DNA of 64,000 nucleotides from Planctomycetota bacterium (GTDB lineage Bacteria > Planctomycetota > Planctomycetia > Pirellulales > Pirellulaceae). The position numbers and the translations under genes are program-made. Positions 1,836-53,904 of the stretch are shown piece after piece; within the stretch, counting starts at the first letter, position 1; every line of letters starts with the position of its first letter. Location of the stretch: assembly GCA_029259935.1 (NCBI GenBank), contig JAJDEH010000154.1:12123-76122 (forward strand), written 5' to 3'. The notes beneath the pieces were generated by a model. It saw only the letters and a list, made by a program, of their open reading frames with translations, ran no database searches and was not told the DNA's origin.

Positions 1836-3593
1836 TCAATCGCTCACCAATTGGACGTCTCTTCGGCCTCGAACAGGGAGGGCCGGCCAAGTAACATATC
1901 CCTTTTGAATCTCGTCGCTGATCCTGCGCTGCGCGGGCGGGATATAGTAAACGCTTTGCCGATCGTCGTATTTGGCGCGGCGTCCCCACAGTTGGGCGAT
2001 GTTGTCTTGATATAACAGCGCCCACTCGTCGAGATTTTCTTTCATCACCTGCTGCGAATGCGGCTGGCCCCGGCTGAGCAGCACTAAATCAGGACGGCGA
2101 AATTCCAAGATCCGCCCGCCATCAAATGCCGGCGACTGGCTGCTTCGCCAACGCCACTTGGAACCGCGGTCGCCGAGCGTCAAGTCGAAACTCATGTCGA
2201 CGATCTCTTGTGGATAGCAAGTGCGGAAGCGGCCGTCGAAGGCGACTTGAATTCCTGGTTCCTCGGGCGAACGCGTGCCGAACGCTCCGATAACGTATTG
2301 CGCCCAGTTGTAGGTAACCACCATGCGCCCTTGCAGGTTGTGGTCGGCGATGTATTGCATCGCGGTCACGGGATACCGGGCACGGTCGACTTTCAAATCG
2401 GTCAGTCGTTCGTAGAGCCGCGCACCTAAAACCAGATAAGACAAACACAGACCGCCAATCAACATGCGTCGCATGAGCGGGGACATCTGGCCGCCGAATT
2501 GACCTTCCTCTTGCGAAACGCGCCAACGGCGAAAACAGGACTCAATATGAACCGGCATCCAAAAGCCGAACAGGATCGCAAAAAACGGGATGTGCCGCTG
2601 GTGTTCGAGGGATTGCCACAGCGTCAGTGTCAGCAGCACCAAGTGGGTGAAGTCACGAGAGCGTTTCGAAAACGCCATGGCCGTGCCGAACAGCGCGATA
2701 ATTAACCACAATTCGACATTCTCGAGGGCGAACATGTTGGGGGCCGCCCATTCGGTAATCTCTGGACGCGGTGTCCCCAACGATTCGAGCAGCCACAGCG
2801 GCAGGCCCGGGCCATAAGGATTGACCAGGGTCGCCAGGCCCGCCACGAAAATCATCAAGGCAAAGCGGCGCACGATTCCCATCCCGTCCCAGCCGCGTTG
2901 CATGAGCACTTCGACGGTTCGGCACACCAAATAGGCGACGTACAAACAATACCCGGCCACAAAGCCGCCGTGTGAGTTGGCCCAGAACAGAAACAAAATG
3001 GGGGCCAGCCACAGCAGTCGCAAGCGGCCCGCGCAGTAGTTGGAATCCTGATCTTCATCGCGCTCGAAACCAGGGCCGAAGCGAGGCAAATGCCAGTTGC
3101 CTTGCCAGCCGTGAAAGCAATACGACAACAGCACGACCAGCAGCGTGAAATAGATGTATGAAAACAATTGCGGCCGCACGGCCCAGTGGAAAGCCATGTT
3201 CGTCGCCACGAGCATCGCCACTAAGCAAACGGTCACTAGCTTCGCGCCGTCACGAAAGGCCTGCCAGACGATCAATCCCAGCAGCAGCAAGCTCAGCACG
3301 AACTTCGCCATGACCAGCCCCACCGGGCCAATCGTATCCGCACCGATCGCCATCAACAGTTCGGCGAAGTTTTCGTGGTTGACCCAGCGATAGCCCGCGG
3401 CTGTGTAGGAATAAGTTGTCGTCGGCGCGAATTCTCCATCGGCGATCGCGTCGCGTCCATATTGCACGTGTCCCCACAGATCCGGACCGGTAATATTCGG
3501 CGACATCGCCACGGCACTTCCTAGCACGATGGCCAGCAGCAACGCGCGTTGAAACCACAACGCAGTCTTGGATTCCTGATTCGGTTCGGACAT
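1836..3593 (-). CDS. Polytopic membrane protein, unknown (GT-C-like topology)
   Basis: 585 aa from ATG 3593. It has about 9-10 hydrophobic helices over residues 15-400, with an early [10 protein letters not shown] loop and a HENFAELL segment, then a soluble C-terminal domain of about 170 residues with [11 protein letters not shown] and a Y-rich tail. An acidic loop after TM1 and a large C-terminal domain recall GT-C glycosyltransferases and the uncharacterised membrane proteins often annotated in planctomycetes, but I see no defining catalytic motif. It lies 23 bp upstream of the GT2 gene on the same strand and is probably co-transcribed with it. It is separated from the E2 gene upstream by 193 bp with no obvious signal, so belonging to the ubiquitin-like cassette is possible but unsupported. 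Confidence 0.7.
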
Positions 3594-3786: not shown

Positions 3787-4521
3787 TCACTCGAGATTCG
3801 GCGGGCGCAAGTCGCGCGGATCGACGGGCAGATGCTTGGCGTTGGTGTCGGCCCACATGGCCGCTTCGCCGTCGAGCGGGCTCTTGATGTTATACGCCTG
3901 ATAACTGATCAATTCGCCGATTCGAATCACGAGATCGACCAGCCGTTCGGCCGCCGTCCAGTGATCGCCAACGCAGATCATGGCCGGTTCGATGTTGGGA
4001 TGAAAGATGGGCGTCAGCATGCGGCATTTGGGGCTTTGCCGGGGATAGTCGCGCGTCAGTTGAATCTCAACGACGTGCCCTTCACGATAGATCGGCTTGC
4101 CGTCCTGGCCTCGCGCCAATCCCCGCACGTTGTAAATAATTCGATACAGTTCCGGTGGATTCCCAACGGCTTGATGAATTCGAATCAGCGGAAAGCTTTT
4201 GAAGGCGCTTCGGACGGTTTCCGCATCCGCGACAAGCCGGCGAGTTCGCGGCGGTAACTTGGGCTTCTTTTGCTTGGCGGGAACTGGCTGGGAGGGCGCC
4301 GCGACGGGCGAATCGACGTTACTCTTTCGCGTGGTGGTTGGCGTTGCCGGCGCGGAAGCTTCCGCCGGTTGGCGAAGTCTCTGAACGGTGCCGGCTCCCG
4401 CCGATGTCGCTCTTGGCACCAACAGCGATTTACCGCAACCTTTGCACTTGCCTTTGCGGCCCGCGAGATCATCGGCCACGGAAAAAGTCTTGCCGCAGTT
4501 GTCGCAGTTAAACGTGATCAT
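3787..4521 (-). CDS. Zinc-ribbon / E2 ubiquitin-conjugating-enzyme-like (UBC fold) protein
   Basis: 244 aa from ATG 4521, with GAGG 5 nt upstream; an in-frame TTG at 4524 is less likely. Residues 6-29 form a Cys4 zinc ribbon (CDNC then CKGC, with GRKGK between). A Pro/Ala/Lys-rich linker runs to about 90. Residues 95-235 look like a UBC/E2 domain: YPRQSPKCRMLTPIFHPNI matches the classical YPxxPPxxxFxTxxxHPNI stretch, with HPN at 174-176. A Cys at 183 in MICVGDHW sits 9 residues after that His, against 10 in UbcH5. This is followed by a W-x(8-10)-hydrophobic helix and a region aligning with the post-Cys NPxxPL segment (IKSPLDGEAA). It therefore keeps the catalytic Asn and Cys. Inferred role: accept the Ubl from the E1 at 8728-9948 and transfer it, probably with the RING-like protein next door. 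Confidence 0.82.
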   Translation of the reverse strand: MITFNCDNCGKTFSVADDLAGRKGKCKGCGKSLLVPRATSAGAGTVQRLRQPAEASAPATPTTTRKSNVDSPVAAPSQPVPAKQKKPKLPPRTRRLVADAETVRSAFKSFPLIRIHQAVGNPPELYRIIYNVRGLARGQDGKPIYREGHVVEIQLTRDYPRQSPKCRMLTPIFHPNIEPAMICVGDHWTAAERLVDLVIRIGELISYQAYNIKSPLDGEAAMWADTNAKHLPVDPRDLRPPNLE

Positions 4522-4552
4522 CAAACCTCAACATCGGGGCTGTTAGTTTCAT

Positions 4553-4605
4553 TTGTGGTGCAGCCGTCCCGGCGGCAATCGGCAGGCGAGACGCCTGCAC
4601 CACAA
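4553..4605. repeat. REP-like inverted repeat between RING and E2 genes
   Basis: Arms of 11 bp (TTGTGGTGCAG at 4553-4563 and its complement at 4595-4605) enclose a second perfect hairpin with 7-bp arms (GCAGGCG at 4582-4588, CGCCTGC at 4592-4598). The phrase CAGGCGAGACGCCTGCACCAC resembles short dispersed repeats common between planctomycete genes. It lies in the only sizeable gap (98 bp) of the cassette, so it may attenuate transcription or stabilise the upstream mRNA. There is no U-tract, so a classical intrinsic terminator is unlikely. Confidence 0.6.
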
Positions 4606-4619
4606 CTTTCTCTGTACAG

Positions 4620-5315
4620 TCAAACCATCCAATACAAGAGCGAGAGGCAGAACCCAAACAAGACTCCCAAAACCGAAATAGCCGTGGCCGCCACGGGTAC
4701 GGCCCAACCGATCTTGTGCGAGCGATTGACTCCCATGACGAGGGCCAAAACTCCCATCAACAGCGACGGGAACCCACAAGTCACAATACTAAACAAAGCC
4801 GCCAATGCACTAGCCGCCAAGACGACGTATTCCCACGGCACGTCGGCTTCCACCGGTCGTTGCTTGGTTCGCTGCAACCGTTGTGGCGACCAGGTGCCGC
4901 CGGGCTGCATCGTCGGTCCGGGCTGCATCAGGGGACTGGCTTGCGGCGTGGTCGTGGGCGGACCCAGGCCTTGAATGCTGATATCCGGGCCCACCTTCAG
5001 CGCGTTGACATTCTTGCAACCATAGGCCGAGCAGCCGAGATTCTCCTGCCAACATTCGGAATGGAATGGCAAGCCGCAAGCCTGGCAGGCGGTTCTTTCG
5101 TCGTCGTCGTCGATCCCGGTTTGACAGACACTGCAGACTTCTTGGATTTCGACCGCGTTTTCGGTCGTGAAACTCTTTCCGGCCACGGTGGCCGGGTCGG
5201 GAATTTCCAACACCAGTTGGCACCGCTGGCACTGCCCCTTGCGGCCCACTTGCGAGGCGCGCGCGGTCAGCACGGCTCCACACTGGCAAGCGAATTGGAA
5301 TTTCTCGTCGGACAT
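4620..5315 (-). CDS. Membrane RING/PHD-like treble-clef protein (Prok-RING type), candidate E3
   Basis: 231 aa from ATG 5315. Residues 10-32 are a zinc ribbon (CQC then CQRC). Residues 61-100 hold eight well-spaced ligands: C61-x2-C64, C77-x2-C80, H85-x2-C88, C95 and C100, with the hallmark GLPFHSECW. This is a cross-brace RING/PHD-like binuclear zinc pattern of the kind described for prokaryotic RING families. A Pro/Thr/Gln-rich linker (about 115-155) leads to two membrane helices (about 162-197 and 203-229), so the zinc modules are membrane tethered, probably facing the cytoplasm. It lies 15 bp downstream of the FHA gene and upstream of the E2 gene. The inferred role is to bring the E2 to substrates at a membrane; ligase activity is not proven by the motif. 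Confidence 0.8.
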   Translation of the reverse strand: MSDEKFQFACQCGAVLTARASQVGRKGQCQRCQLVLEIPDPATVAGKSFTTENAVEIQEVCSVCQTGIDDDDERTACQACGLPFHSECWQENLGCSAYGCKNVNALKVGPDISIQGLGPPTTTPQASPLMQPGPTMQPGGTWSPQRLQRTKQRPVEADVPWEYVVLAASALAALFSIVTCGFPSLLMGVLALVMGVNRSHKIGWAVPVAATAISVLGVLFGFCLSLLYWMV

Positions 5316-5330
5316 GTGTTTTGGCGAAGC

Positions 5331-6581
5331 CTACCGTTTCGCTCGTTCTTGAAACAGAAAGACCGTCCCGCCGATTTGAATGGAATCGCCGCTCTTGAGT
5401 CGCGTGCGCGATACCGGTTGGCCATTGACAAAAGTTGGCGATGACTCATCCAGGCTTTCGATCTCGAATCCACCGGGCCGCTTGTGAACGGCCGCGTGCC
5501 GTGGAGCGATGGCGGGATCCTTGAACAAGTAGATTTCACATTGGGGCGAACTGCCGATGTACGTCGGATTTTTATATAAGACGAATTGCTTGCCCGCGAT
5601 TAAACCCACGGCCACCCGCAGCCAGCCCGATTTGGTGGCGGTTTCCAGCACGCCCGTTCCGATTCCCGTTACCATGCCGATCGCACAGATCGCCACGAAA
5701 CGGCTGCCCACCGCGCTGTTGGTGGCTTCCGCGATGATGTCGAACAACATTCCACCCAGCGTCCCCCCAATAATTCCACCAGCCAACCCAATGGCGAAAC
5801 GCTTCCAGTTCTTCAGACTCACTCCCGGAGCAACCGCCAAACTGCCGCCGACCATCGACCAGGCGATCGTGCGCCAGACCACCTGAGTAAAAAACGAGTC
5901 CTCGGGACTGCCAATGAGCGGTTCCACGATCAGGTTGAGAACGACGGTGGTGGCAATCGCGCCCACCGTGGCCCCAACGACTCCGGCAGCGATTCCGATC
6001 GAACCCTTGATGATCACGCCACGCCAATTGCTGCTGACCAGATCCTCGGCAATAGACAGGCTGCCGCTGATCAAAATGCCGACCCAACCAAAAAGGAAAA
6101 TAATTCCAATCAACCCGCTAATTCCATCTCGGGACAGTTGCTGGTCCATGGCTATCACGCGCTCGTCATCCGACAACGATTCGTCCGCTTCAATCTGGAG
6201 GTACGGATTGCTTGAATAAGCCTGCCGCAGTTCCACGATTTGTCTTGCCGCTTCCTCGGACGTAATCTCTCCATTGTTCGCCTGCTCAATCAGTTGCTGC
6301 TCGGTCTGCCAGACATAATCGTAATTCTCTTGCGTACCGAAGAATATGAGAAACACCAGTTCCGCCACCAGCCACGCCAGCAGCCCGCCCACCAAGCCGA
6401 ACAGGCCCATGTAGACCATGGTGTTGTACAGCAGTTGGCTCCAGTTAAAGCCGCCGATGGCCGTGCCCGACTGTTGTTCGTAATGGCTTTGCGCCCGATC
6501 GGTGGCTCCTTGCTGGCGCAACCGTTCATCAACCCGCGGGCTGTGGATCTCCTCGGAAGTGATGCGGATTTTGTTGCTCAT
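5331..6581 (-). CDS. Polytopic membrane protein with C-terminal FHA domain
   Basis: 416 aa from ATG 6581. A soluble N-terminus of about 45 residues is followed by hydrophobic segments at about 50-80, 153-175 and 188-217, and a Gly-rich stretch with GxxxG repeats at about 240-330. Residues 332-413 form an FHA domain: YIGSSPQCEI (341-350), APRHAAV (359-365), then D-x2-S-x-TFVNGQPV (378-390) and GDSIQIGG. FHA domains bind phosphothreonine. Here the Arg of the usual GRS motif is Ser, and the Ser of SRxH is Pro360, so phosphopeptide affinity may be altered. In the cassette it could recruit phosphorylated substrates or partners to the membrane. It is 49 bp downstream of the protease gene and 15 bp upstream of the RING gene. 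No strong Shine-Dalgarno is visible. Confidence 0.8.
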   Translation of the reverse strand: MSNKIRITSEEIHSPRVDERLRQQGATDRAQSHYEQQSGTAIGGFNWSQLLYNTMVYMGLFGLVGGLLAWLVAELVFLIFFGTQENYDYVWQTEQQLIEQANNGEITSEEAARQIVELRQAYSSNPYLQIEADESLSDDERVIAMDQQLSRDGISGLIGIIFLFGWVGILISGSLSIAEDLVSSNWRGVIIKGSIGIAAGVVGATVGAIATTVVLNLIVEPLIGSPEDSFFTQVVWRTIAWSMVGGSLAVAPGVSLKNWKRFAIGLAGGIIGGTLGGMLFDIIAEATNSAVGSRFVAICAIGMVTGIGTGVLETATKSGWLRVAVGLIAGKQFVLYKNPTYIGSSPQCEIYLFKDPAIAPRHAAVHKRPGGFEIESLDESSPTFVNGQPVSRTRLKSGDSIQIGGTVFLFQERAKR

Positions 6582-6630
6582 GGTGGTCCGTCAAGCGATG
6601 CCGCGATTCCCGCGATTTGGCTTCGAAGGT

Positions 6631-7548
6631 TTATCTTTGCACGCGGGCCAACAGGTCGGAGACGTCTTGGAAATAAACCCACTTTTCCCGGTCGAAGACC
6701 AGATCTGCCCGCACGGCGAAACCCAGCGACTGCGCCAGACTGGGATCAAAGACTTTCGTGTTGACGCCCACGACAAAGCCGTCTTGGTTCACCAGCGGGC
6801 CGCCACTATTCCCCCGGCTGATTGCCGCGCTGGTCTGCAACTCCATTCCGCGCCGCTTGGCCGACACAATGCCATTGGTGACGGTGAAGTCCAACCCCAT
6901 GGGATGGCCGACCGCCACCACCGGCTCGCCCACGCGAACGTCGCTAAATCGACCGAGCGGCCCGAGGGTTTGCAGACCCGGCGCGTCCACTCGCACGAGC
7001 GCCAGATCCAACTCGTCGTCTTTCGTACGACCGACGATTTCACCGGGCACGCGATAACCGGCCCGAATCACGACCTGGCAATCGTCGGCGTCCGCAACGA
7101 CGTGCAGGTTGGTCAAGATCAAATGGAGGTCGCCGCTGCTGGCGATCACAAAACCCGTTCCCAGCGCGGATTGATCGCACTCCAGGCGGACCACGCTACG
7201 ATTGGCGCGGGCGGCGATCTGTTCGACCCAGTCGCGTTCGGGCTCCTTGGTCAACCAAGCCAAACCCAGGGCGATACATCCCGCGCAAGACAAGCCGGCA
7301 AGTAGAAAAGCCACGACGCGAAAAAACCCTCGCGCCGACGGCGGACCGTGCCGCCACCAAATCCAAGCATTCAAGAACGGGACGAAGGTCATGACGATCC
7401 AGACGGCGACAGGCAGTCCCGACCCAGGAGCTTTCGTGCCGTGCGCGGGAGTCGCACTCTGCAGCGCTGGCGCGGCCGGCATGCTAGGCGGCTTGGGGCT
7501 TGCCAAGTCCTGGGGACGAATGACGATCTTGTTGGGTGGGTCATTCAT
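6631..7548 (-). CDS. Membrane-anchored trypsin-like (S1C/HtrA-type) serine protease without PDZ
   Basis: 305 aa from ATG 7548. A far-upstream in-frame start at 7632 would lie deep in the JAMM gene; 7548 overlaps that gene by only 8 nt (ATGAATGA), suggesting coupling. A Pro/Ala-rich N-terminus of about 44 residues is followed by two membrane segments (about 47-66 and 75-99). The protease domain (about 105-290) has His149 in LTNLHVV, Asp181 in DDELDLALVRVD and Ser248 in GNSGGP, a complete triad in the HtrA/DegP-like arrangement. No PDZ domain follows. Whether it faces the periplasm or cytoplasm is not settled by the sequence. Possible roles are processing the Ubl or other cassette proteins, or degrading modified targets. 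Confidence 0.85.
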   Translation of the reverse strand: MNDPPNKIVIRPQDLASPKPPSMPAAPALQSATPAHGTKAPGSGLPVAVWIVMTFVPFLNAWIWWRHGPPSARGFFRVVAFLLAGLSCAGCIALGLAWLTKEPERDWVEQIAARANRSVVRLECDQSALGTGFVIASSGDLHLILTNLHVVADADDCQVVIRAGYRVPGEIVGRTKDDELDLALVRVDAPGLQTLGPLGRFSDVRVGEPVVAVGHPMGLDFTVTNGIVSAKRRGMELQTSAAISRGNSGGPLVNQDGFVVGVNTKVFDPSLAQSLGFAVRADLVFDREKWVYFQDVSDLLARVQR

Positions 7549-8731
7549 CGGGTGACGAACTCGCTTCCCCTGGGTCGTCGTTCTCGTCGACCTCACTCTC
7601 GGATTTCTTTTCCTCCTTGGATTCACCGTCATTCGACTTTGGCTTATCGGGAGTTTTCGATTCGACCGGTTCGGTACCCTTGCCGGGAAACTCGCCGGTT
7701 GCCTTCGGCCGCGCCGATTCGTTTGCGGACGGCTGGACCTCCGCTTTACCGGACGGCTCTGGATCGGAGGTTTCTTTTTCCTGGTCGGGCGCGATCCTAG
7801 GCGGGTTCACGAGTACCCTGTTGGGCGCGCGGTGCTGCCTTTCGCCGCCCCATCCGGGAACTCGCGCGCCAAAATGTTCGATCAGCAGCGGAGCCATGAG
7901 CAACGTGACGGCCAAGCTGTAGAAAATTAGCAACGCGACAAAAACTGAAAGGAAGGATAGCCGTCGTTCAAGACGAGCGACTCGCGCGGCGGTTTCCTCG
8001 TCGTGGCCCATCGACGGTTCTATTTGCGGCGTTCCTGATTCGACGGTTCGCGCCGTGACCGAGAGTGCATCCGTCGACACGGGTCGCATTTCGCTAGGCG
8101 GCGTTGCCTCAATGGGCGGATCTTCCGGCACGTCGGGCTCGATCAGCAACCCATCACGGGTCGCCTTTCCCGATCGCCAAACAAACAGGCCTTCGTCTCC
8201 GCCCAGTGGATCGTAGACGAACGCCAATTGTTCGTCGGCGCTGAAGTAATTCTCGTGGATGAACAAATCCATGGCGGACAAGAAGATGCCAAATCCCGGG
8301 TGCGTATGATACCAGCCCAAAATCCTTAGTTCAGGATACTTCTGGTCCAGTTCGCCATGAATGTGATTCCAAGTTTCGCCCGTGAACGTGACCTGCGCCG
8401 TTTGGCCGTCGGAGTGCTGGCCTTCAATGATCTGTTCGATATAAACAAAGGGGCCGCGTTCATCTCGGTACCCGTTCCCGATCATGACGCCGCAGATTTC
8501 CACGTCGGTGCGGGTTTGCCCGTGACGGTGGATGGCGTTGAGGACGGACTGCCTGACAACCACGCGCACGGAATTTTCACGCCGTGCATCATCGGCGGGA
8601 AAGGATCGCTCGGGCCACTCGTTGGCGTCGACCAGGTCGATGTCCGGACCCGTACTCGGTTGCTGACCGGCAACAGGATCCGATTCGTTCCGTTCAGATT
8701 CGGTTTGGTTTGTTTCAGTATCTTGGCTCAT
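7541..8731 (-). CDS. Membrane-anchored JAMM/MPN metallopeptidase (deubiquitinase-like)
   Basis: 396 aa from ATG 8731, overlapping the E1 stop by 4 nt (ATGA); an in-frame GTG at 8737 is an alternative. Residues 55-190 are a JAB/MPN domain with Glu78 in VEICGVMIG and the full JAMM signature HTHPGFGIFLSAMD at 142-155 (H-x-H-x10-D), so all zinc ligands and the catalytic Glu are present. Such enzymes cleave isopeptide or C-terminal bonds of ubiquitin and bacterial Ubls. After a low-complexity linker, one membrane helix spans about 258-284. The C-terminal ~110 residues are Pro/Glu/Lys/Ser-rich and probably disordered. Context: between E1 and the trypsin-like gene. Predicted role is maturation and/or removal of the Ubl at a membrane. 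Confidence 0.88.
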   Translation of the reverse strand: MSQDTETNQTESERNESDPVAGQQPSTGPDIDLVDANEWPERSFPADDARRENSVRVVVRQSVLNAIHRHGQTRTDVEICGVMIGNGYRDERGPFVYIEQIIEGQHSDGQTAQVTFTGETWNHIHGELDQKYPELRILGWYHTHPGFGIFLSAMDLFIHENYFSADEQLAFVYDPLGGDEGLFVWRSGKATRDGLLIEPDVPEDPPIEATPPSEMRPVSTDALSVTARTVESGTPQIEPSMGHDEETAARVARLERRLSFLSVFVALLIFYSLAVTLLMAPLLIEHFGARVPGWGGERQHRAPNRVLVNPPRIAPDQEKETSDPEPSGKAEVQPSANESARPKATGEFPGKGTEPVESKTPDKPKSNDGESKEEKKSESEVDENDDPGEASSSPDE

Positions 8732-9948
8732 GACCACTCCAACTCATCTTCGCCGGCGACCAACGGTCCGAGGACTTCGGCGGCGTCGCCCGTTAGCTCG
8801 ATCCCCACTCGACGCTCGGAGGTCTGCGCGATGATGATATCAAATGGCGGCACGCCGATGTCGCGCAATGTTCGGTCAAGGAAGGTCTCCGTTCCTCGAA
8901 TCTTGAAAAACGTTTCCACGTCGCGACGAACTTGCCTGCACCGCGGACACCATGCCTTGTCGGCCGGTACTTTCCCCAGCGACGCGAACATCATTTCTTC
9001 ATTGCCACATTGGCGGCAAACAAGTTTTTCAAGCACATCGCGGCCTAGTTCCAATTCCACCTCCGGACCTAGCATGGCTCGAGCCTGTTCCAGCACTCTT
9101 CTAATGCGCGTGTCGGCCTGTACGCCGTCCAACGTGATGATCTCTTCCAATGTATCGTGGCTGTAGCACTCTTCCTTTCGCTGATACTCAACGCCATAAG
9201 AATCACCGCCAAGCCCTTCAAAGAACCAACCGCGACCCGCCATCGTCGACATCCCGTGTACCAGTTTGACCGCCTCTTGGCATTGGACGCCGGCAATGAT
9301 GCTGCTGATGGTGGGCGTGGTAGGGGTTTTGCCCGCTTCCATTTCTTCCCGGGATAACAAGTTGCACGATCTACGTCGTTCCAGCAATTTCCAATCGACC
9401 TCCGACATGGTGCATTCGTAACACGGGCCATCCGGGACGAACACACGAGCGCAGCCTTGAATCTGTTCGATGGCGCCATCGATCCATGGACGATCAACTC
9501 GCCAACAATTGCGATTGATCGCCAAGCGGGCCTCGCGATTGTCCAAGCCGGCAATCACGACATCGGCCCAACGAAATACCCCCAGTCCCAAGTCGTAGAC
9601 GATGTTGCCCTTAAAATCTTGCACGCGCATTTCGGGGTAGATTTCGCGTGCCGCCCGCGCCGCGACTTCCGCTTTATAGCGCCCATTGTCGGCCGCCCGA
9701 TAAAGGACGGATCGGGATAGATTGGAATTCTCAATTCGATCCAGGTCGGCGACGAGCAAATGGCCCACGCCCAGCAAGGCAAGATTCTTGACAATCTCAT
9801 TCCCCAGCGCGCCCGCGCCGACGACGAGCACCTTGGTTTGCGAGAGCTTTTCTTGATCCCACCAACCAATCAAACGAAAGCGATGAAACCGGTCTTGTTG
9901 ATCGGCATGAACTTCGTCCGACGAAACTCGTAGCGGCTGGTCATTCAT
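8728..9948 (-). CDS. E1-like ubiquitin-activating enzyme (ThiF/MoeB superfamily)
   Basis: 406 aa from ATG 9948, overlapping the Ubl stop by 4 nt (ATGA); an earlier in-frame start at 10044 would overlap the Ubl gene by 100 bp. The Rossmann adenylation domain shows VLVVGAGALG (GxGxxG at 44-49), the DLDRIENSNLSRS stretch at 68-80 and DNREARLAINRNC near 136-148. C176-x2-C179 fits a ThiF zinc pair. Cys195 in RRRSCNLLS, just before the TPTTPT loop and the IAGVQCQEAVKLV helix, is the best candidate for the thioester Cys. The C-terminal part (about 300-406) adds a second CxxC pair set (C311/C314, C334/C337) and an unassigned domain. Inferred role: adenylate the adjacent Ubl and pass it to the E2-like protein. 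Confidence 0.88.
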   Translation of the reverse strand: MNDQPLRVSSDEVHADQQDRFHRFRLIGWWDQEKLSQTKVLVVGAGALGNEIVKNLALLGVGHLLVADLDRIENSNLSRSVLYRAADNGRYKAEVAARAAREIYPEMRVQDFKGNIVYDLGLGVFRWADVVIAGLDNREARLAINRNCWRVDRPWIDGAIEQIQGCARVFVPDGPCYECTMSEVDWKLLERRRSCNLLSREEMEAGKTPTTPTISSIIAGVQCQEAVKLVHGMSTMAGRGWFFEGLGGDSYGVEYQRKEECYSHDTLEEIITLDGVQADTRIRRVLEQARAMLGPEVELELGRDVLEKLVCRQCGNEEMMFASLGKVPADKAWCPRCRQVRRDVETFFKIRGTETFLDRTLRDIGVPPFDIIIAQTSERRVGIELTGDAAEVLGPLVAGEDELEWS

Positions 9949-10244
9949 TTGGGACCACGCGTCGTCGGTTTCGTCGCGCCGGCGGTGATCTCCGGCTGCA
10001 GTCGCAACACGTCGCCTTCTTGGCAGGCAACGTCCGTCAGACATTGCTCGTCCAGAAGTTGCCGACCCGAACGTTTGTGATGAAACTTGTAGCTCAGCGG
10101 CTGCCCATCGGGCCCTGTTTGGGGCAAGTTCATTTTCTCCAACAGCACGGCCAGAATTCGGTTCACCGCGGCATCGTCGGGCAATTCCACATCTTGGCGT
10201 TTGTTGCCCGTGGCATCCCAGACCTGAACTGTAATCATGGCCAT
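9945..10244 (-). CDS. Ubiquitin-like beta-grasp protein (YukD/EsaB-like)
   Basis: 99 aa from ATG 10244, preceded by AGGAG at 10-nt spacing; an in-frame ATG at 10238 is the alternative. The pattern is that of a beta-grasp Ubl: strand ITVQVWDATG (4-13), strand KRQDVELPDD, helix AVNRILAVLLEKM (27-39), strand LSYKFHHKRSGRQL, then a QEGDVLRLQP strand (75-84) with the GDxLRL phrase typical of YukD-like proteins. The C-terminal tail is ITAGATKPTTRGPK, with no terminal Gly-Gly. Either the conjugation site is unusual or the tail is trimmed first, for example by the JAMM or trypsin-like protease. It is the promoter-proximal gene of the cassette and its stop overlaps the E1 start, as expected for the modifier. 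No ESX/T7SS genes are near. Confidence 0.82.
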   Translation of the reverse strand: MAMITVQVWDATGNKRQDVELPDDAAVNRILAVLLEKMNLPQTGPDGQPLSYKFHHKRSGRQLLDEQCLTDVACQEGDVLRLQPEITAGATKPTTRGPK

Positions 10245-21045: not shown

Positions 21046-21081
21046 TTGAAACGGTGAAACTTTGAAAACGGTGAAACTTTG
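21046..21081 (+). repeat. Short tandem repeat before the PilM-like gene
   Basis: The phrase TTTGAAAACGGTGAAAC occurs twice in tandem (one copy one base shorter) and a third partial copy supplies the TTG used as start codon at 21079. It replaces a recognisable Shine-Dalgarno, so initiation of the following gene is uncertain. Confidence 0.5.
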
Positions 21082-23322
21082 AATCGTGGCCTCAAGCAAC
21101 CAGTAGATATCGCAACAAGTTCAGGTGACGACTTGCGCGAACCGATCGTTTGTATTAGCTGTCGGAAGTCGAATGGTCACGACCGAAAGTTTTGCTCAAA
21201 GTGTGGGCAGTCTCTGTGGGAAAGCTGTGAAAGTTGCGGGCACACCTTGCCCCTGGCCGAAGCGTTTTGCGGGGCATGTGGTACCGATTTGGAGGCCGTT
21301 CGCAGAGACAAACGTGGGCATGGCGAAAGCAGTTTGTCGCGCGCTGCCGAGCTTTCTCGTGAATCAGAATATGACAAGTCACTGGCTTTGCTGGAGAGTC
21401 TGGTGGCCGACGAAGATCCTCGACTGGCCGACCTAATCGAGCGGGCTAGCGAACTTCAACAGCGCGTGTCGCGGGAGAAACAGCACCAAATGGCATTCGC
21501 CGCCGAGACACTTGGCAAGGCGAAGAAGCTGCTGGAACGCCACGCGTATGACCAGATTATCGGGCTGGTGACGGACGTTGCGGAAACCGTTCGATCGGAC
21601 GAACTGAGATCGTTGTTGGCGTTGGCGGTTGGTCGCCGCGATGAAGTGTTGGCGTTGAGCGGTGAAATTCGTGACGGTGTAAAGTCGGGAAAGCACTCGG
21701 ACTTGATGCCCAAATTGAGCCGGATGTTGGTGTTGCTGCCCAGCCATAAACAAGCGAAACAGCTCTTCGATTCCATTCGGCAAAAGCTGTTGCACTCCGC
21801 CAAGAAGGAATTTGCACGCCATCAATATCGCAAAGCCAAGTTGTTGCTGGACCGAATTCCATTGGACGCTCAGTCGGACGAGTGCGTGAAGTTGAGCGAT
21901 GAGGCTCATGAGTTGGCTTGCCACGTGGACAGTCTTTGTGCCTCGCCCTTGGTTGACAAACCGCTGTTGGCGATCACGAACAAGTTGGCGAAGGTTGCCG
22001 CTGGTCACCCGCATGTTGCCAAGTTGAGACGCAAGCTAAAAGAAAAAATGAAGGTCCGCTCCCAGGATCCCCGCGCGCCACTTCAAACCTGGGCTCGCGC
22101 ACCCAAGCGGTCACACTTTGCATTTCCAGTGGACTGGCTGGGCGGTTCGCGTCGTGTCACGGGCTGGGCGGAATTGAATTCACGAGACCATCTCCAACAA
22201 CCTGGTTCGTTTTTTGTGGCATGCGGCCTCGCCCTGCAGGCACTGGGACGGGCGGAAGTGGCCGTGAACTTGGTCCCTCGCGAGAAGAAAGGGCTGTTTG
22301 ACGTCTTCACGCGCAAAAAGAAAAACGGGACGACGGTCGCCGGTTGGGGATTTGACCTTGGTGTATCGTCGCTGAAGATTGTCAAACTCGTCCAAGAGGG
22401 TGACACGGGCGAAGACCTGCGAGTTGCGGCATGCCACCGAATCGCGTTCAAGAAGCACCGGTTCGCGGCCAGTACCGAATCCGATGAGCGGGAAGTCATC
22501 CAACAGGCGCTCAAGTCTTTTCTGGCGAAGAACCAACTGGGCGACGAGCCGATTGCGGTTTCCATTCGCGGGTCTCGCGTGTTCGGGCGATTCTTCAGGT
22601 TGCCGCCCATGGAGGAGGAAGTGGCCCTCAAGGCAATTCGTCACGAAGCATGCAATCAAATCCCTTTACCCATCGATGAGATGGTTTGGGACTACCACAT
22701 GGAAAGACGTTCAAAAGACTCGGCGAATGAAAACTCCGACTTGATCATGCCACGAAACGTGACGTTGGCGGCCGTCCGCGAACGGGATGCGCGCGAGTAC
22801 TTACGCCCGTTTCAAGAATTGGAAATGAAGGTGGAAGTGCTGCAGAACGAATTTTGGGCTCTGTATAACTTCGCCCATTATGAATTCTTCGCGAACCAAG
22901 CAACGTCAAGCGAGGGAGTGCCTGGTGACGCTCAACCGACAACGCAAGCCATCGCCCTGCTGGATGTTGGCAGCGAGGCTTGCGGTTTGGTGGTTTGCAT
23001 GCCGGGACATGGCTGGTTTCGATCACTTCCCGCCGGCGGTGATGACTTTACAAAAGCGATTTCGCAAACCTTCAACCTAACCCACGAGCAGGCAGAGCAA
23101 GTCAAGTTGAATCCAGCGACCGCGCCCAGGCTGAGCCAGTTGCAGCAAGAATTCCAGCGCATCTTCGCATCCCTCGTGGGGCAGATCGACCGTTCCTTGG
23201 TCTCGTTTTCTTGCGAGAATCCAGATGTGACGATCAAGCATTTGTACACGGTTGGCGGCGGTGGGCAGATGCACGGCATGCTAACGAACCTCAGGAACGG
23301 GGCGGCGGATGCCAATGTTTGA
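21079..23322 (+). CDS. PilM-like actin-fold protein with two N-terminal zinc ribbons
   Basis: 747 aa from TTG 21079; a stop lies 24 nt upstream and no ATG/GTG start is available near the N-terminus, so TTG is the only sensible start. Residues 25-67 hold two zinc ribbons (C25/C28/C39/C42 and C50/C53/C64/C67). Residues about 80-330 are helical repeats rich in Lys/Leu, TPR-like. From about 415, GWGFDLGVSSLKIVKL is the actin-like phosphate-binding start of PilM. It continues with SIRGSRVFGRFFRLPPM, EACNQIPLPIDEMVWDYH, IALLDVGSEACGLVV and YTVGGGGQMHGM. PilM is the cytoplasmic ATP-binding component of type IV pilus and related assembly machines. Usual PilM is about 350 aa, so the N-terminal half is an addition. 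No pilN/O/P/Q follow here. Confidence 0.82.
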   Translation: MNRGLKQPVDIATSSGDDLREPIVCISCRKSNGHDRKFCSKCGQSLWESCESCGHTLPLAEAFCGACGTDLEAVRRDKRGHGESSLSRAAELSRESEYDKSLALLESLVADEDPRLADLIERASELQQRVSREKQHQMAFAAETLGKAKKLLERHAYDQIIGLVTDVAETVRSDELRSLLALAVGRRDEVLALSGEIRDGVKSGKHSDLMPKLSRMLVLLPSHKQAKQLFDSIRQKLLHSAKKEFARHQYRKAKLLLDRIPLDAQSDECVKLSDEAHELACHVDSLCASPLVDKPLLAITNKLAKVAAGHPHVAKLRRKLKEKMKVRSQDPRAPLQTWARAPKRSHFAFPVDWLGGSRRVTGWAELNSRDHLQQPGSFFVACGLALQALGRAEVAVNLVPREKKGLFDVFTRKKKNGTTVAGWGFDLGVSSLKIVKLVQEGDTGEDLRVAACHRIAFKKHRFAASTESDEREVIQQALKSFLAKNQLGDEPIAVSIRGSRVFGRFFRLPPMEEEVALKAIRHEACNQIPLPIDEMVWDYHMERRSKDSANENSDLIMPRNVTLAAVRERDAREYLRPFQELEMKVEVLQNEFWALYNFAHYEFFANQATSSEGVPGDAQPTTQAIALLDVGSEACGLVVCMPGHGWFRSLPAGGDDFTKAISQTFNLTHEQAEQVKLNPATAPRLSQLQQEFQRIFASLVGQIDRSLVSFSCENPDVTIKHLYTVGGGGQMHGMLTNLRNGAADANV

Positions 23323-50623: not shown

Positions 50624-53575
50624 TCAGTCTTGCGTCTCTTTGCCGGGTGCAGGTTGGTCTTTGGGCCGGTTGTGAACACTCTCCGCTCGTCCAATCACCT
50701 TCAACTCATCATCCACTGTGACCCACTTGGCACCAACAATCTTGCCGTCGTGCCCATTGCCGGATGAGTCTTTCAGGACGCTGCCACTGCCTTTGTCGAA
50801 GTGATACAGGGCCATCGTATGCTTATCGGTTTCAAAACGCTTAGAGGGAATGAATTCTTTGGGGTAGCGGGCGATGTTGGAAAAGCGCACTTCGTCCATA
50901 ACGAGACGAAACGCACTCATATTCTGTTTGTCACCTAACTGAGATACGCTAAAGATACAAGGCTGTGCAGATTCACGTTTCCCGATTATCACAGGGATGC
51001 GTTCCCCTTGCAGTCTGCCGTCGATGTACAACGACAGCGCTTTGCCGTCGTAGACTACGGCAACGTGTACTGCCCGATTCTTTTCCAGCAATCGAGTCGC
51101 AACGGTGTGGGCATTTTGTGGTTCGCTCGTTGCATACGCCATCAACACCCCTTTGCGCTGGAGTTGTAACGCAAGGCAGGGTGGAGGGCCGAGCAAGGCG
51201 ATTGAGTGTGAAAGATCAGTGGGGAACTCCCCGTCGAATGTGAGACGGACCTCCATAGTCAGTGCATGAGAGCCGTCGTACATAGCCATCGTCGATGGAT
51301 CAATTGTCGCCTTTCCATCAAACTCCAACGCATAGTTCTCTTCCGGCTCTCTCGAAACCACCTTCAACTCATCGTCCACCCGCACCCACTTGGCACCGAC
51401 AATTTTCCCGTCGTGACCGTTGCCGGATGAATCTTTCAGGACTGTGCCGGTGCCTTCATCGAAGTGGTACAGGGCCAGCGTGTTCTTGTCGGCACTGAAA
51501 CGTTTGGTGGGCGTGAAGTCCTTGTCGTAGCGGGCGATGTTGGATATGCGGACTTCGTCGATGATTCCGTCCAAGCTGATCTCATTATTCATGCCACCGA
51601 TGAAGAATTCACCCACATCCCATGATTGCCTCTTCCGATCAGGTCGGGCTACCGCTCGTTTGCCATCAACGAAGAGATCAACCTTCGAGCCATCCCAAGT
51701 ACATGCGAGATGAGTCTTCTGCTTCAACAGCACTGTTGAAGAAGCAGCGAAAGTCGACTGCTTCGTATGAAAGTGGCCGTTGGCGGTGCCATCTGCTCGA
51801 ATCCACAGGGACGGACTGGCACGTCTCCCGATGCCACGAATGATCGTCCCGTGTGAATAAGAGTTCAGATTGACGAAGGCTTCAATTGTTATCGGAGTCA
51901 GGTCGTCGTACACCAGATTTTCCAAAGTAACTGAGTCGTCTACTCCATCAAACCGCAGGGCGAAATTCCGTGACGACGAACTAACTGCGCCATTGCTCGC
52001 CGCTTCCTTCTCCAAACGCACTTTGATCGTCTGCTTGTTCCCGGTGTCAAATGTGAATCCTTCCGTAAACGTCTTGAACCCGGCCATCGTCACTTCGAGC
52101 TTGTGCCGCTTTTCGTCCGGCTTCACCTCGATGGTCTCATTGCCCTTGCCAGTCTTGATCGTGATTTTCTTCTCGCCGTCAATCGTGACGACCGCACCGA
52201 CCAGTTCCGGCTGATCGATCTCCAGGACGACCGTGCCTGCTGGTGTTTGCAGCTTGATGATGAGACCAGCGGCCAACAGCAACACCGCCAGACAACCTGC
52301 CGCAATCGCCAGCGCTTTCTTGCCAAATCTGCCGCCACCTTGCTCGGCATCAAGCACGGCTTCGCCAATGATCGTCGCATCCAGAAAACCTGATGCCAGC
52401 GTGTCGTTATGGGCAGCGACCGTGGGGGCGGTTTTCGGTTTTGTGGCAAGTCGCTGCGTTGGCTCGCCTTCGACTGCGAGAATGTGCAGAAATTGCTGAT
52501 AGTCGGGATCAGTCACGCTCGTATCGACAGATGACGAACTTCCAGACGCCGGTTCCAGCAGGCCGCAAGCATTCAATTCAGCAATGACTTCGCTCATGGT
52601 CTGCTGCCTGTCTGTGGAGCGTTTTGCCACCATCTTTTGGAATACTTGATCGAGGGCTTGGGGCACGTCGGGACGTGCAGCCATCAGCGAGGGAATTGGC
52701 TGATCCCGGTGAGCGAGAATCTTTTTGACGATAGTATCGCCTGCGAAGAGAGAATCGCCGGTGAGCAGGTAGTAGAGTACGCAGCCAAGACTGTAGATAT
52801 CGCTGCGGGCGTCGGCGGCGTGCGTGTCTTCGGCCTGTTCGGGTGACATATAATCGAGCGTGCCCATGACCGTGCCGGATTGTGTTAGAGCCGTCATCGG
52901 CTTCTCGTCGGCAACCTCTTCCAATCGGGCCAAACCCATGTCGAGGATTTTGACCGTGCCCTCCGTATCCAACAGGATGTTGGCCGGTTTGATGTCTCTG
53001 TGGACAATCCCTTGGGAGTGAGCGTATTGCAGCCCCTTCGCCGCCTGCATGACGTAATCGACGGCCTGTTTGACAGAAAGCACGCCTTTCTGTTTTACCA
53101 GTACGGACAGGTCCACGCCCTCGACATGCTCCATCACGAAGAAATGCAGCCCTTTGGCTTCGTCGGCATCGAAGGCAGTGACGATGTTGGGGTGGGACAG
53201 CTTCGCAGCGGCTTCGACTTCACGGTGAAAGCGTTGAATAACGCTTGGGTATTCCGACTTGTCTTTTGGAAGCGTCTTCAGGGCCACCCGGCGTTTCATG
53301 CGACGGTGCCGAGCCAGATAGACCTGCCCCATTCCGCCTTCACCGATCTTGTCGAGAATCAGGTAGTTGCCGAGGACCAACCCGGAACCCTTGCCGCTGA
53401 TGATCTGATTGATCTGGTATTGGGTCAGCTTGTTTTGCTGGATGAGTTCGCTCGCCAGTTCCTCGACGGACTTCGGACCATCAGCCAACGTCTGGTGCAG
53501 CGCAGCCAGATCGTCGTCCGAAAGCACACCGCTGTCAGAAAGGTTTTGAATGAATTGTTGGACTGAGATGTCCAT
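50624..53575 (-). CDS. Ser/Thr protein kinase with TM, PEGA-like and LamG-like domains
   Basis: 983 aa from ATG 53575 (an upstream ATG at 53614 is the alternative). Residues 1-65 are a planctomycete-type N-terminal helical region ([25 protein letters not shown]). The kinase (about 68-340) has [13 protein letters not shown] (78-90), VALK with Lys100, [11 protein letters not shown] (192-202), DMGLARLEE (DMG replaces DFG, 212-214) and [12 protein letters not shown] membrane helix follows at about 430 ([18 protein letters not shown]), then a PEGA-like domain ([27 protein letters not shown]). Two LamG/concanavalin-like modules (about 545-725 and 760-960) each end with the same [31 protein letters not shown]. 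It is a transmembrane kinase whose outside part probably binds sugars or surface polymers. Confidence 0.9.
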
Positions 53576-53904
53576 ATGAAGTATCGGTTTCCGACACGTC
53601 GAATCAGTTTCCACTACCCATCATCGTACTACCGAGCGGCTGGGATGTCATTATCCAACTGTCATGCGATTCGGCGGCATCCTCTTCGACATGAAAGATG
53701 GGCAAGGTTTGGGTTGCTGCCCCATCAAAGTGCATCCCAGTTGTAAAGTGTCAGTATCCTCGATTCTCGGCTTCGAATTCCATGGAAAAACAGCCACCCG
53801 ACTTCTTCAACCAGTGTAACGTCTCGATTGAAAGCGACAGTTTACACATTTAGGACACCGACAAGCCTCCTGTTCGATGATCACTTCTTCAACAGGAGAC
53901 GAGC

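Follow-up and report, generated by a model that had tools for sequence, protein, structure and literature searches.

A 64,000-nucleotide stretch of DNA from a Planctomycetota bacterium (GCA_029259935.1, contig JAJDEH010000154.1, positions 12,123 to 76,122; hereafter the window) carries, at 3787-10244 on the minus strand, seven head-to-tail genes that would encode a pathway for conjugating a ubiquitin-like protein (Ubl) on the cytoplasmic side of the membrane, of the kind predicted by Burroughs, Iyer and Aravind. From comparisons of sequences and structural models, we give this reading a probability of about 0.83. A preliminary description of the window had proposed a complete Ubl-E1-E2-RING-JAMM cassette, and the proposal held on its two most exposed points, the UBC fold of the E2 and the conservation of the candidate catalytic cysteines of E1 and E2. 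The genes stand in the order first described, Ubl, E1, JAMM metallopeptidase, trypsin-like protease, FHA protein, RING protein and E2, and all seven domains were matched by Pfam (YukD, ThiF, JAB, Trypsin_2, FHA, Prok-RING_1 and UQ_con; Table 1). Their packing is operon-like. The Ubl stop codon and the E1 ATG overlap at 9945-9948, as do the E1 stop and the JAMM ATG at 8728-8731, and the likely ATG of the protease (7548) precedes the JAMM stop (7541-7543), which makes a third overlap; the remaining gaps are of 49 (protease-FHA), 15 (FHA-RING) and 98 (RING-E2) bases.

Relatives were collected as 80 loci from species-level genomes, using an alignment of 23 Ubl relatives (80 of 94 relatives were kept). 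Genes in these loci were called as longest open frames, many of them with unverified N-terminal extensions. Three protein searches gave 1691, 3028 and 508 matches, 120 of which were listed each time, the third (relatives of a RING-trypsin protein of locus L102, see below) having scored 7998 candidates. The Ubl and first E2 alignments held 23 and 20 of 120 listed sequences, and those of E1, E2 (wide) and RING held 47 of 76, 30 of 48 and 26 of 60 loci rows. Conservation is given below as rows, i.e. the window protein plus its relatives in the loci.

The candidate catalytic Cys195 of E1 was kept in 77 of 77 rows, from seven phyla as named by NCBI. In locus L061, all four CCCH zinc-ligand positions of E1 are lost and Cys195 is retained, therefore the putative catalytic role of this residue is separable from a structural one. 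A model of the E1 (pLDDT 90) aligned to Uba1 (4ii3) over residues 15-385 (282 residues, 4.0 Å) and to SAE2 (9dqb) over 22-388 (304 residues, 3.7 Å), and by this whole-chain fit the modelled C-terminus is UFD-like. The best sequence matches of E1 in the PDB are UBA7 and UBA1, with UBA7 on top (2.7e-28). For the E2, the fold, the HPN motif and the candidate cysteine together place the protein in the UBC superfamily: His174-Pro-Asn and Cys183 are present in 49 of 49 rows from five phyla, and the top matches among solved structures belong to the UBE2N/UBE2K group. The RING protein, described earlier as a treble clef with eight zinc ligands, passes the Prok-RING_1 cut-off (30.2 bits, for a threshold of 29.1), and the eight ligands (C61, C64, C77, C80, H85, C88, C95 and C100) are all conserved in 61 of 61 rows. 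Finally, the JAMM protein carries the E ... HxH ... S xx D signature of JAMM/MPN+ peptidases, with H142, H144, S152 and D155 in 63 of 63 rows and E78 in 62; its top PDB match is Rpn11 (2.4e-9).

The beta-grasp fold of the Ubl is predicted from its match to the YukD profile. In a profile comparison with solved structures, the top matches were ubiquitins, albeit weak ones (whole-chain E of 5e-4, no single stretch passing). At the C-terminus, among 200 Ubl sequences (120 listed database sequences, the window's included, and those of the 80 loci), 198 have -PEITAG, one -PEISAG and one -PESTAG, and the glycine of this -PExxAG element is invariant. The protein stops at that glycine in 84 cases, and continues in the other 116 with a tail of 1 to 61 residues. 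In pairs of tailed Ubls that are 85-98% alike before the glycine (n=1498), the cores are 88.8% identical and the tails 9.6%, where 8.0% is expected from composition. Tail identity being so close to this expectation, purifying selection therefore stops at Gly89. This is the pattern expected of a precursor cut at that residue.

Which enzyme would make this cut? Tailed Ubls were found in seven loci that have JAMM and E2 and no detected trypsin. Five of these have less than 3 kb of sequence upstream; the other two, L006 and L015, have at least 4.6 kb on both sides. JAMM is therefore the likelier trimming enzyme on these sequence grounds, and the idea that Ubl tails need the trypsin-like protease is not favoured.

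The preliminary description had placed the cassette at a membrane, and hydropathy agrees for four of the seven proteins: membrane segments are predicted in the JAMM, trypsin-like, FHA and RING proteins of the window, and none in its Ubl, E1 and E2. Among relatives, the same hydropathy calls gave one transmembrane segment in 57 of 62 JAMM proteins, at least one in 54 of 60 RING proteins, two in 31 of 38 proteases, and three to six in all 53 FHA proteins. None was predicted in 67 of 76 E1 relatives, nor in relatives of the E2 and the Ubl.

The FHA domain of the polytopic protein is degenerate. In the signature of phosphothreonine-binding FHA domains, GR ... SxxH, the Arg and the Ser usually bind phosphothreonine. 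His362 is present in 53 of 53 rows having the residue, whereas the usual Arg is found in 7 of 53 and the Ser in 5 of 53; the window protein has Ser and Ala in their places. An IYLFKD strand of the domain is strongly conserved. With Arg and Ser mostly lost, this domain therefore probably binds a partner without phosphothreonine. The role of plain phosphothreonine reader is thus rejected for proteins of the window type, and is kept for another arrangement, in which an FHA signature precedes the RING in a single protein. Such fusions account for 11 of 60 RING proteins (nine named Phycisphaer-, and two, L014 and L019, assigned to Planctomycetota/Planctomycetes only); the sole one scanned, L009, has a Pfam-confirmed FHA domain and a RING match of 0.001, below cut-off, and the other ten were recognised by a sequence pattern. 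The protease, for its part, has the intact triad first attributed to it, nearly invariant among relatives: D181 and S248 are in 39 of 39 rows and H149 in 37, with one Arg and one gap. Among NCBIfam models its domain is nearest to Do/HtrA (TIGR02037, 1.9e-43, below the curated cut-off).

Put together, these parts would work as follows. In step 1, the Ubl would be made with or without a random tail, and JAMM would trim it to Gly89. E1 would then adenylate Gly89 and form a thioester on Cys195 (step 2), which would pass to Cys183 of the E2, docked by the UFD-like C-terminus of E1 (step 3). The membrane-anchored RING protein would activate the charged E2, so that amino groups of substrates are modified (step 4), and the membrane-anchored JAMM could reverse conjugation (step 5). 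The FHA protein would act as a polytopic scaffold, its FHA domain probably binding independently of phosphothreonine, and FHA-RING fusions would add a phospho-directed version in some planctomycetes (step 6); the trypsin-like protease would work on tagged or RING-bound proteins (step 7). RING being found fused to FHA-like stretches on the one hand and to trypsin on the other (in loci L101 and L102), both are therefore tied to the RING protein. Sequence and structure comparison support the identity of the parts in steps 1 to 5; that any of these steps takes place, and steps 6 and 7 throughout, we infer.

Several points weigh against the conjugation reading. It comes entirely from comparing sequences and structures, and its transmembrane segments and topologies are hydropathy predictions. 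Eight loci with a tailed Ubl have no JAMM; a JAMM match was found elsewhere in all eight genomes, that of G001 being borderline by Pfam and that of G011 lying in two frames. The predicted mature Ubl ends in a single glycine and lacks the diglycine end that is usual, if not universal, among ubiquitin-like modifiers. A precedent for a single C-terminal glycine exists in CBASS, with Cap2 and cGAS (PMC10097602). Bacillus YukD, on the other hand, was reported not to be conjugated (PMC1779556), and no demonstration of E3 activity for Prok-RING_1 proteins was found in the passages of the literature consulted.

We then asked how widely the cassette is distributed. By record title, the 76 loci with an E1 come from Acidobacteriota (31), Planctomycetota (20), Ignavibacteriota (10), Armatimonadota (5), Verrucomicrobiota (4), Bacteroidota (3) and Lentisphaerota (1), two being unassigned; among named species, Edaphobacter aggregans carries locus L065. 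Over the 80 loci, many of them cut by a contig end, E1 was found in 76, JAMM in 62, RING in 60, FHA in 53, E2 in 48 and trypsin in 38. Of the 51 loci that extend 8.5 kb or more past the Ubl, 37 have the set of Ubl, E1, JAMM, FHA, RING and E2, and 22 of these 37 also trypsin; 10 have only E1 and RING, and 4 have other subsets or nothing. The same set recurs, its gene order mostly kept, in Planctomycetota, Acidobacteriota, Verrucomicrobiota and other phyla, so the association is not due to chance. In acidobacterial loci with trypsin, the protease gene generally lies upstream of the Ubl.

Loci from Ignavibacteria and related Bacteroidetes hold at most Ubl, E1 and RING, and a first reading was that E2 and JAMM are missing from these bacteria. 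Genome searches overturned it. Of 15 Ignavibacterial-type genomes searched with an E2 profile, 14 have a single E2 and one has none, and a single E2 was also found in each of two cassette genomes searched likewise; in the split-type E2s examined, HPN and the cysteine are kept (8 of 8). In 14 of the 14 genomes, a JAMM lies beside the E2, away from Ubl-E1-RING. Twelve of these JAMMs matched Prok-JAB, as judged by position (six stretches were analysed gene by gene), and the other two were found with a custom profile, one of them in two frames. The genome without E2 match has a borderline Prok-JAB at 455-733 of one contig. As 14 of 15 split genomes keep both halves, we conclude that Ubl, E1, RING, JAMM and E2 remain associated in a genome even if its operon is broken. 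Neither FHA nor trypsin was matched in the Ignavibacterial-type clusters examined, the rest of these genomes not having been searched for trypsin. A second type of locus, with E1-Ubl-E2-JAMM, was seen in L103, L104, L105 and L108 (Planctomycetota and Acidobacteriota; L108 has no E1 match). Its Ubls also run into -AG, and no RING, FHA or trypsin was matched there. The suggestion that the combination of FHA, trypsin and membrane might be a distinct subtype is partly right. Neither FHA nor trypsin was matched in the Ignavibacterial-type clusters or the second type, and beyond the planctomycetes, too, the cassette comes with FHA and, less often, with trypsin.

Within phyla, the spread is patchy. 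A search of 148 Planctomycetota gave an E2 match in at least 17 genomes and a Ubl match in at least 13, and the six genomes with the strongest Ubl matches (E below 1e-38) coincide with the six that have the strongest E2 matches (E below 1e-54); G016, the search centre, is among these six. In 149 Acidobacteriota, at least 11 had an E2 match and at least 3 a Ubl match; in 99 genomes of the phylum of L061, these numbers were 2 and 1 (each of these counts includes the search-centre genome). The Planctomycetota and Acidobacteriota figures are lower bounds, since the first-look scoring took at most 19 candidates per genome, and some of the weaker E2 matches belong to the second type.

What would conjugation serve? 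One proposal is quality control by tagging and cutting, Ubl conjugation delivering proteins located at the membrane to the trypsin-like protease, with RING and protease acting as a small proteasome. We consider it possible, on balance doubtful. It draws on the RING-transmembrane-trypsin single proteins of the related cassettes L101 and L102, which were confirmed by Pfam. Among the 120 relatives listed for the L102 protein, which include a copy of itself, 105 have both Pfam domains by an eye count, albeit without genome context; the link to the cassette is then seen in L101 and L102 only, which also counts against the conjugation reading as a whole. The two transmembrane segments seen in most window-type proteases would place both protein ends on one face, and a Do/HtrA-like domain with its triad intact fits such a task. 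However, no trypsin was detected in 15 of the 37 loci having E1, JAMM, FHA, RING and E2 (13 of the 15 in Planctomycetota, some cut short upstream), the Ignavibacterial-type clusters gave no match within the limits stated above, and the topology is a hydropathy call. In L109, a third deep planctomycete cassette, Pfam places no RING in the trypsin protein. These three cassettes, L101, L102 and L109, have two or more tandem RING-like proteins.

Next in order of plausibility comes anti-phage defence of the Bil or Bub kind, where conjugation would be real and directed at phage or stress proteins. We find this unlikely. It would explain the patchy spread, with strong Ubl and E2 matches in only 6 of 148 Planctomycetota, and bacterial Ubl systems studied experimentally include Bil, Bub and CBASS-linked ones (PMC12687455, PMC13373217). 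In PADLOC, the E1 matched E1-E2 models (best 9.2e-18) and BilD (7.3e-9), the JAMM protein JAB models (best 2.3e-7), and the protease RT-Protease_XI (4.3e-13), whereas the Ubl, FHA, RING and E2 proteins gave no match at E up to 1. For Bub itself, no protection against phage had been demonstrated (PMC13373217). The scanned neighbours in the window are ordinary chromosomal genes by Pfam (ferrochelatase, glycosyltransferases, porin-like and pilin-like proteins), and viral carriage was rejected, no relative having been confirmed among viral contigs. Moreover, the Ubl changes slowly, with 60-84% identity over the 80 loci (the search patterns favour conserved copies), and a quick E1 tree (48 rows) largely follows phyla, with 9 changes for a shuffled mean of 27; there, the window groups with eight other rows, all from Planctomycetota, in a starred set. 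That the Ubl varies so little between phyla hints at a role in cell biology more than at one in defence alone.

Two readings without protein tagging are far less probable. In the first, the Ubl would be an accessory of type VII secretion like YukD or EsaB, the other genes being bystanders: the Ubl does match YukD and, weakly, T7SS_EccD (0.044), the FHA protein also matches Yop-YscD_cpl (2.3e-13), and WXG100 proteins occur in 3 of 12 genomes. They are absent from the other 9, that is from 9 of the 11 genomes with the cassette (G101 has the second type), and type VII secretion was rejected as the main reading on this count; inspection by eye of the neighbour clusters that recur showed no prominent secretion-type family, and the invariant Ubl glycine and the E1 and E2 cysteines would be left without a role. 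Sulfur-carrier or cofactor chemistry of the ThiS/MoaD kind is just as improbable, given that the best PDB matches of E1 are UBA7 and UBA1, and that such a pathway is not known to include a RING protein, an E1 with a UFD-like C-terminus, or an E2 that has HPN and Cys.

A last feature concerns the N-termini. A pattern, K-h-x-h-S/T-x-x-D/E-h, is common at the start of the FHA, trypsin and E1 proteins, which belong to three different families. Within their first 60 residues, 37 of 53 FHA proteins, 24 of 37 proteases and 18 of 76 E1s have its strict form, compared to 8 of 565 other genes of the same loci and to shuffled means of 0.6 to 1.6. The other parts have it rarely in this region (RING 3/60, E2 1/48, Ubl 2/78, JAMM 0/62), and the 55 open reading frames of the window have it only in the FHA protein and E1. 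As a control, residues 61-120 gave 9 of 53 for FHA, and 27 of 62 for JAMM, where the match is the active-site FLSxxD stretch. The pattern was written after viewing the sequences, and since the loci are related, they do not count as independent cases; some of the E1 matches may reflect the usual MoeB/ThiF N-terminus. As a lead, the shared motif suggests a docking strand for a common partner.

Adding this motif leads to a bolder picture: a membrane-anchored machine in which a single-glycine Ubl is placed by E1, E2 and RING on membrane or near-membrane proteins, a RING-coupled protease cuts these, E1, protease and FHA scaffold dock through their N-terminal motif, and FHA-RING fusions steer the process in some planctomycetes. 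It is a tentative construction that we rate as rather unlikely in its entirety. If true, it would represent a proteasome-free ubiquitin-protease system present across several bacterial phyla. If the cassette works as its parts suggest, it would in any case be a strikingly eukaryote-like bacterial pathway with separate E1 (UFD-like at its end), E2, RING and JAMM proteins. It would then offer a compact system for testing a ubiquitin pathway without proteasome, and whether one glycine suffices for a beta-grasp tag. It would also allow one to test whether tagging was tied early to membrane proteolysis.

Table 1. Features of the cassette, with coordinates of the window.
Feature	Coordinates	Strand	Description	Basis
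Ubl	9945-10244	-	YukD-type, predicted beta-grasp, 99 amino acids	YukD (PF08817) 1.7e-10
Ubl, predicted mature end	9978-9980	-	codon of Gly89	conservation
Ubl tail	9948-9977	-	10 residues, non-conserved	conservation
E1	8728-9948	-	406 amino acids; ThiF/MoeB-type adenylation domain and UFD-like C-terminal part	ThiF 1.8e-51
E1, candidate catalytic Cys195	9364-9366	-	codon	conservation
E1, N-terminal motif	9910-9933	-	LRVSSDEV	strict match
JAMM metallopeptidase	7541-8731	-	396 amino acids; one predicted transmembrane segment (260-278), charged C-terminal tail	JAB 4.4e-13
Trypsin-like serine protease	6631-7548	-	305 amino acids from ATG 7548 (reading frame open to 7632); two predicted N-terminal transmembrane segments; triad H149, D181, S248	Trypsin_2 6e-29
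Protease, motif-like stretch	7504-7527	-	IVIRPQDL	one position off, fails strict pattern
FHA protein	5331-6581	-	polytopic, 416 amino acids; five predicted transmembrane segments, C-terminal degenerate FHA domain	FHA 3.3e-14
FHA protein, N-terminal motif	6546-6569	-	IRITSEEI	strict match
RING-like protein	4620-5315	-	C4HC3, 231 amino acids, putative E3; two predicted C-terminal transmembrane segments; Cys-rich N-terminus (C10, C12, C29, C32)	Prok-RING_1 (PF14446) 4.2e-07
E2	3787-4521	-	UBC fold, 244 amino acids; N-terminal zinc-ribbon-like part	UQ_con 7.4e-11
E2, candidate catalytic Cys183	3973-3975	-	codon; HPN at residues 174-176	conservation

Some neighbouring genes deserve mention. Directly downstream of the E2 in the window, 1836-3593 (minus strand) encodes a 585-amino-acid protein without Pfam match, followed by a GT2 glycosyltransferase. 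Far from the cassette are a large Hanks-type Ser/Thr kinase with laminin-G-like domains (50624-53614, minus strand) and a PilM-like protein of type IV pilus assembly whose N-terminal part holds a double zinc ribbon (21079-23322, plus strand). In other loci, where neighbour clusters were judged by eye, an extra gene downstream of RING encodes a membrane protein with GYF_2 and DUF4234 (L023:14028-14738, the one scanned with Pfam; the cluster covers 22 loci, mostly acidobacterial). The RING protein of an Ignavibacterial locus (L059:11660-12604, one protein scanned) is extended by a zinc ribbon and a SnoaL-like domain.

How does the cassette compare with known systems? Burroughs, Iyer and Aravind (2011, Mol BioSyst 7:2261) reportedly proposed that YukD-like Ubls are conjugated, and that some of the E1s have a UFD. 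Like the Ubl/E1/E2/RING/JAB operons of that work, the window has these five parts together in a neighbourhood that is conserved. A review credits the same 2011 study with describing, in Actinobacteria, Planctomycetes and Acidobacteria, operons that are related to the ubiquitin cluster of Caldiarchaeum (PMC4197634). In the open literature, we found no experimental study of such an operon, most subscription papers being outside the search. The FtsH ternary conflict systems, also present in planctomycetes, likewise have separate JAB, E1 and RING genes along with Ubl and E2, but there Ubl and E2 form one protein with EAD1, and FtsH-type ATPase, vWA-MoxR and caspase-like effectors lie beside (PMC7159879); in the present cassette they are two proteins, with FHA and trypsin alongside. 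Bil also combines Ubl, E1, E2 and JAMM, and BilC cuts BilA to expose a C-terminal glycine, but BilA has two Ubl domains and BilABCD has four genes (PMC11354881), whereas the cassette has a single YukD-type Ubl plus RING, FHA, trypsin and membrane anchors. The absence of PADLOC matches for Ubl and E2, with the E1 match to BilD, leaves it outside Bil. Bub operons are likewise bacterial Ubl conjugation operons (PMC12687455, PMC13373217). CBASS Cap2/Cap3 use a comparable E1/E2 and isopeptidase chemistry, for which a single C-terminal glycine is enough, but it is cGAS itself that is conjugated, by E1 and E2 domains held in one protein (PMC10097602); here these are separate, and the tag would be a predicted beta-grasp Ubl.

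Compared to these systems, several features may be new: a maturation site sharply defined at one glycine, proteins in which RING is fused to trypsin or to FHA, a scaffold whose FHA domain is degenerate, the motif shared by three N-termini, the set split in two in Ignavibacterial-type genomes, and its wide range of phyla. As ligases, the FHA-RING fusions of some planctomycetes would resemble eukaryotic RNF8 and CHFR in build. The likeness to the eukaryotic pathway is also apparent in the closest solved structures by sequence, UBE2N/UBE2K-group E2s, UBA7/UBA1 and Rpn11, whereas the short E1 with a single adenylation domain, the single-glycine Ubl, and the predicted membrane anchoring of JAMM and RING set the cassette apart from it.

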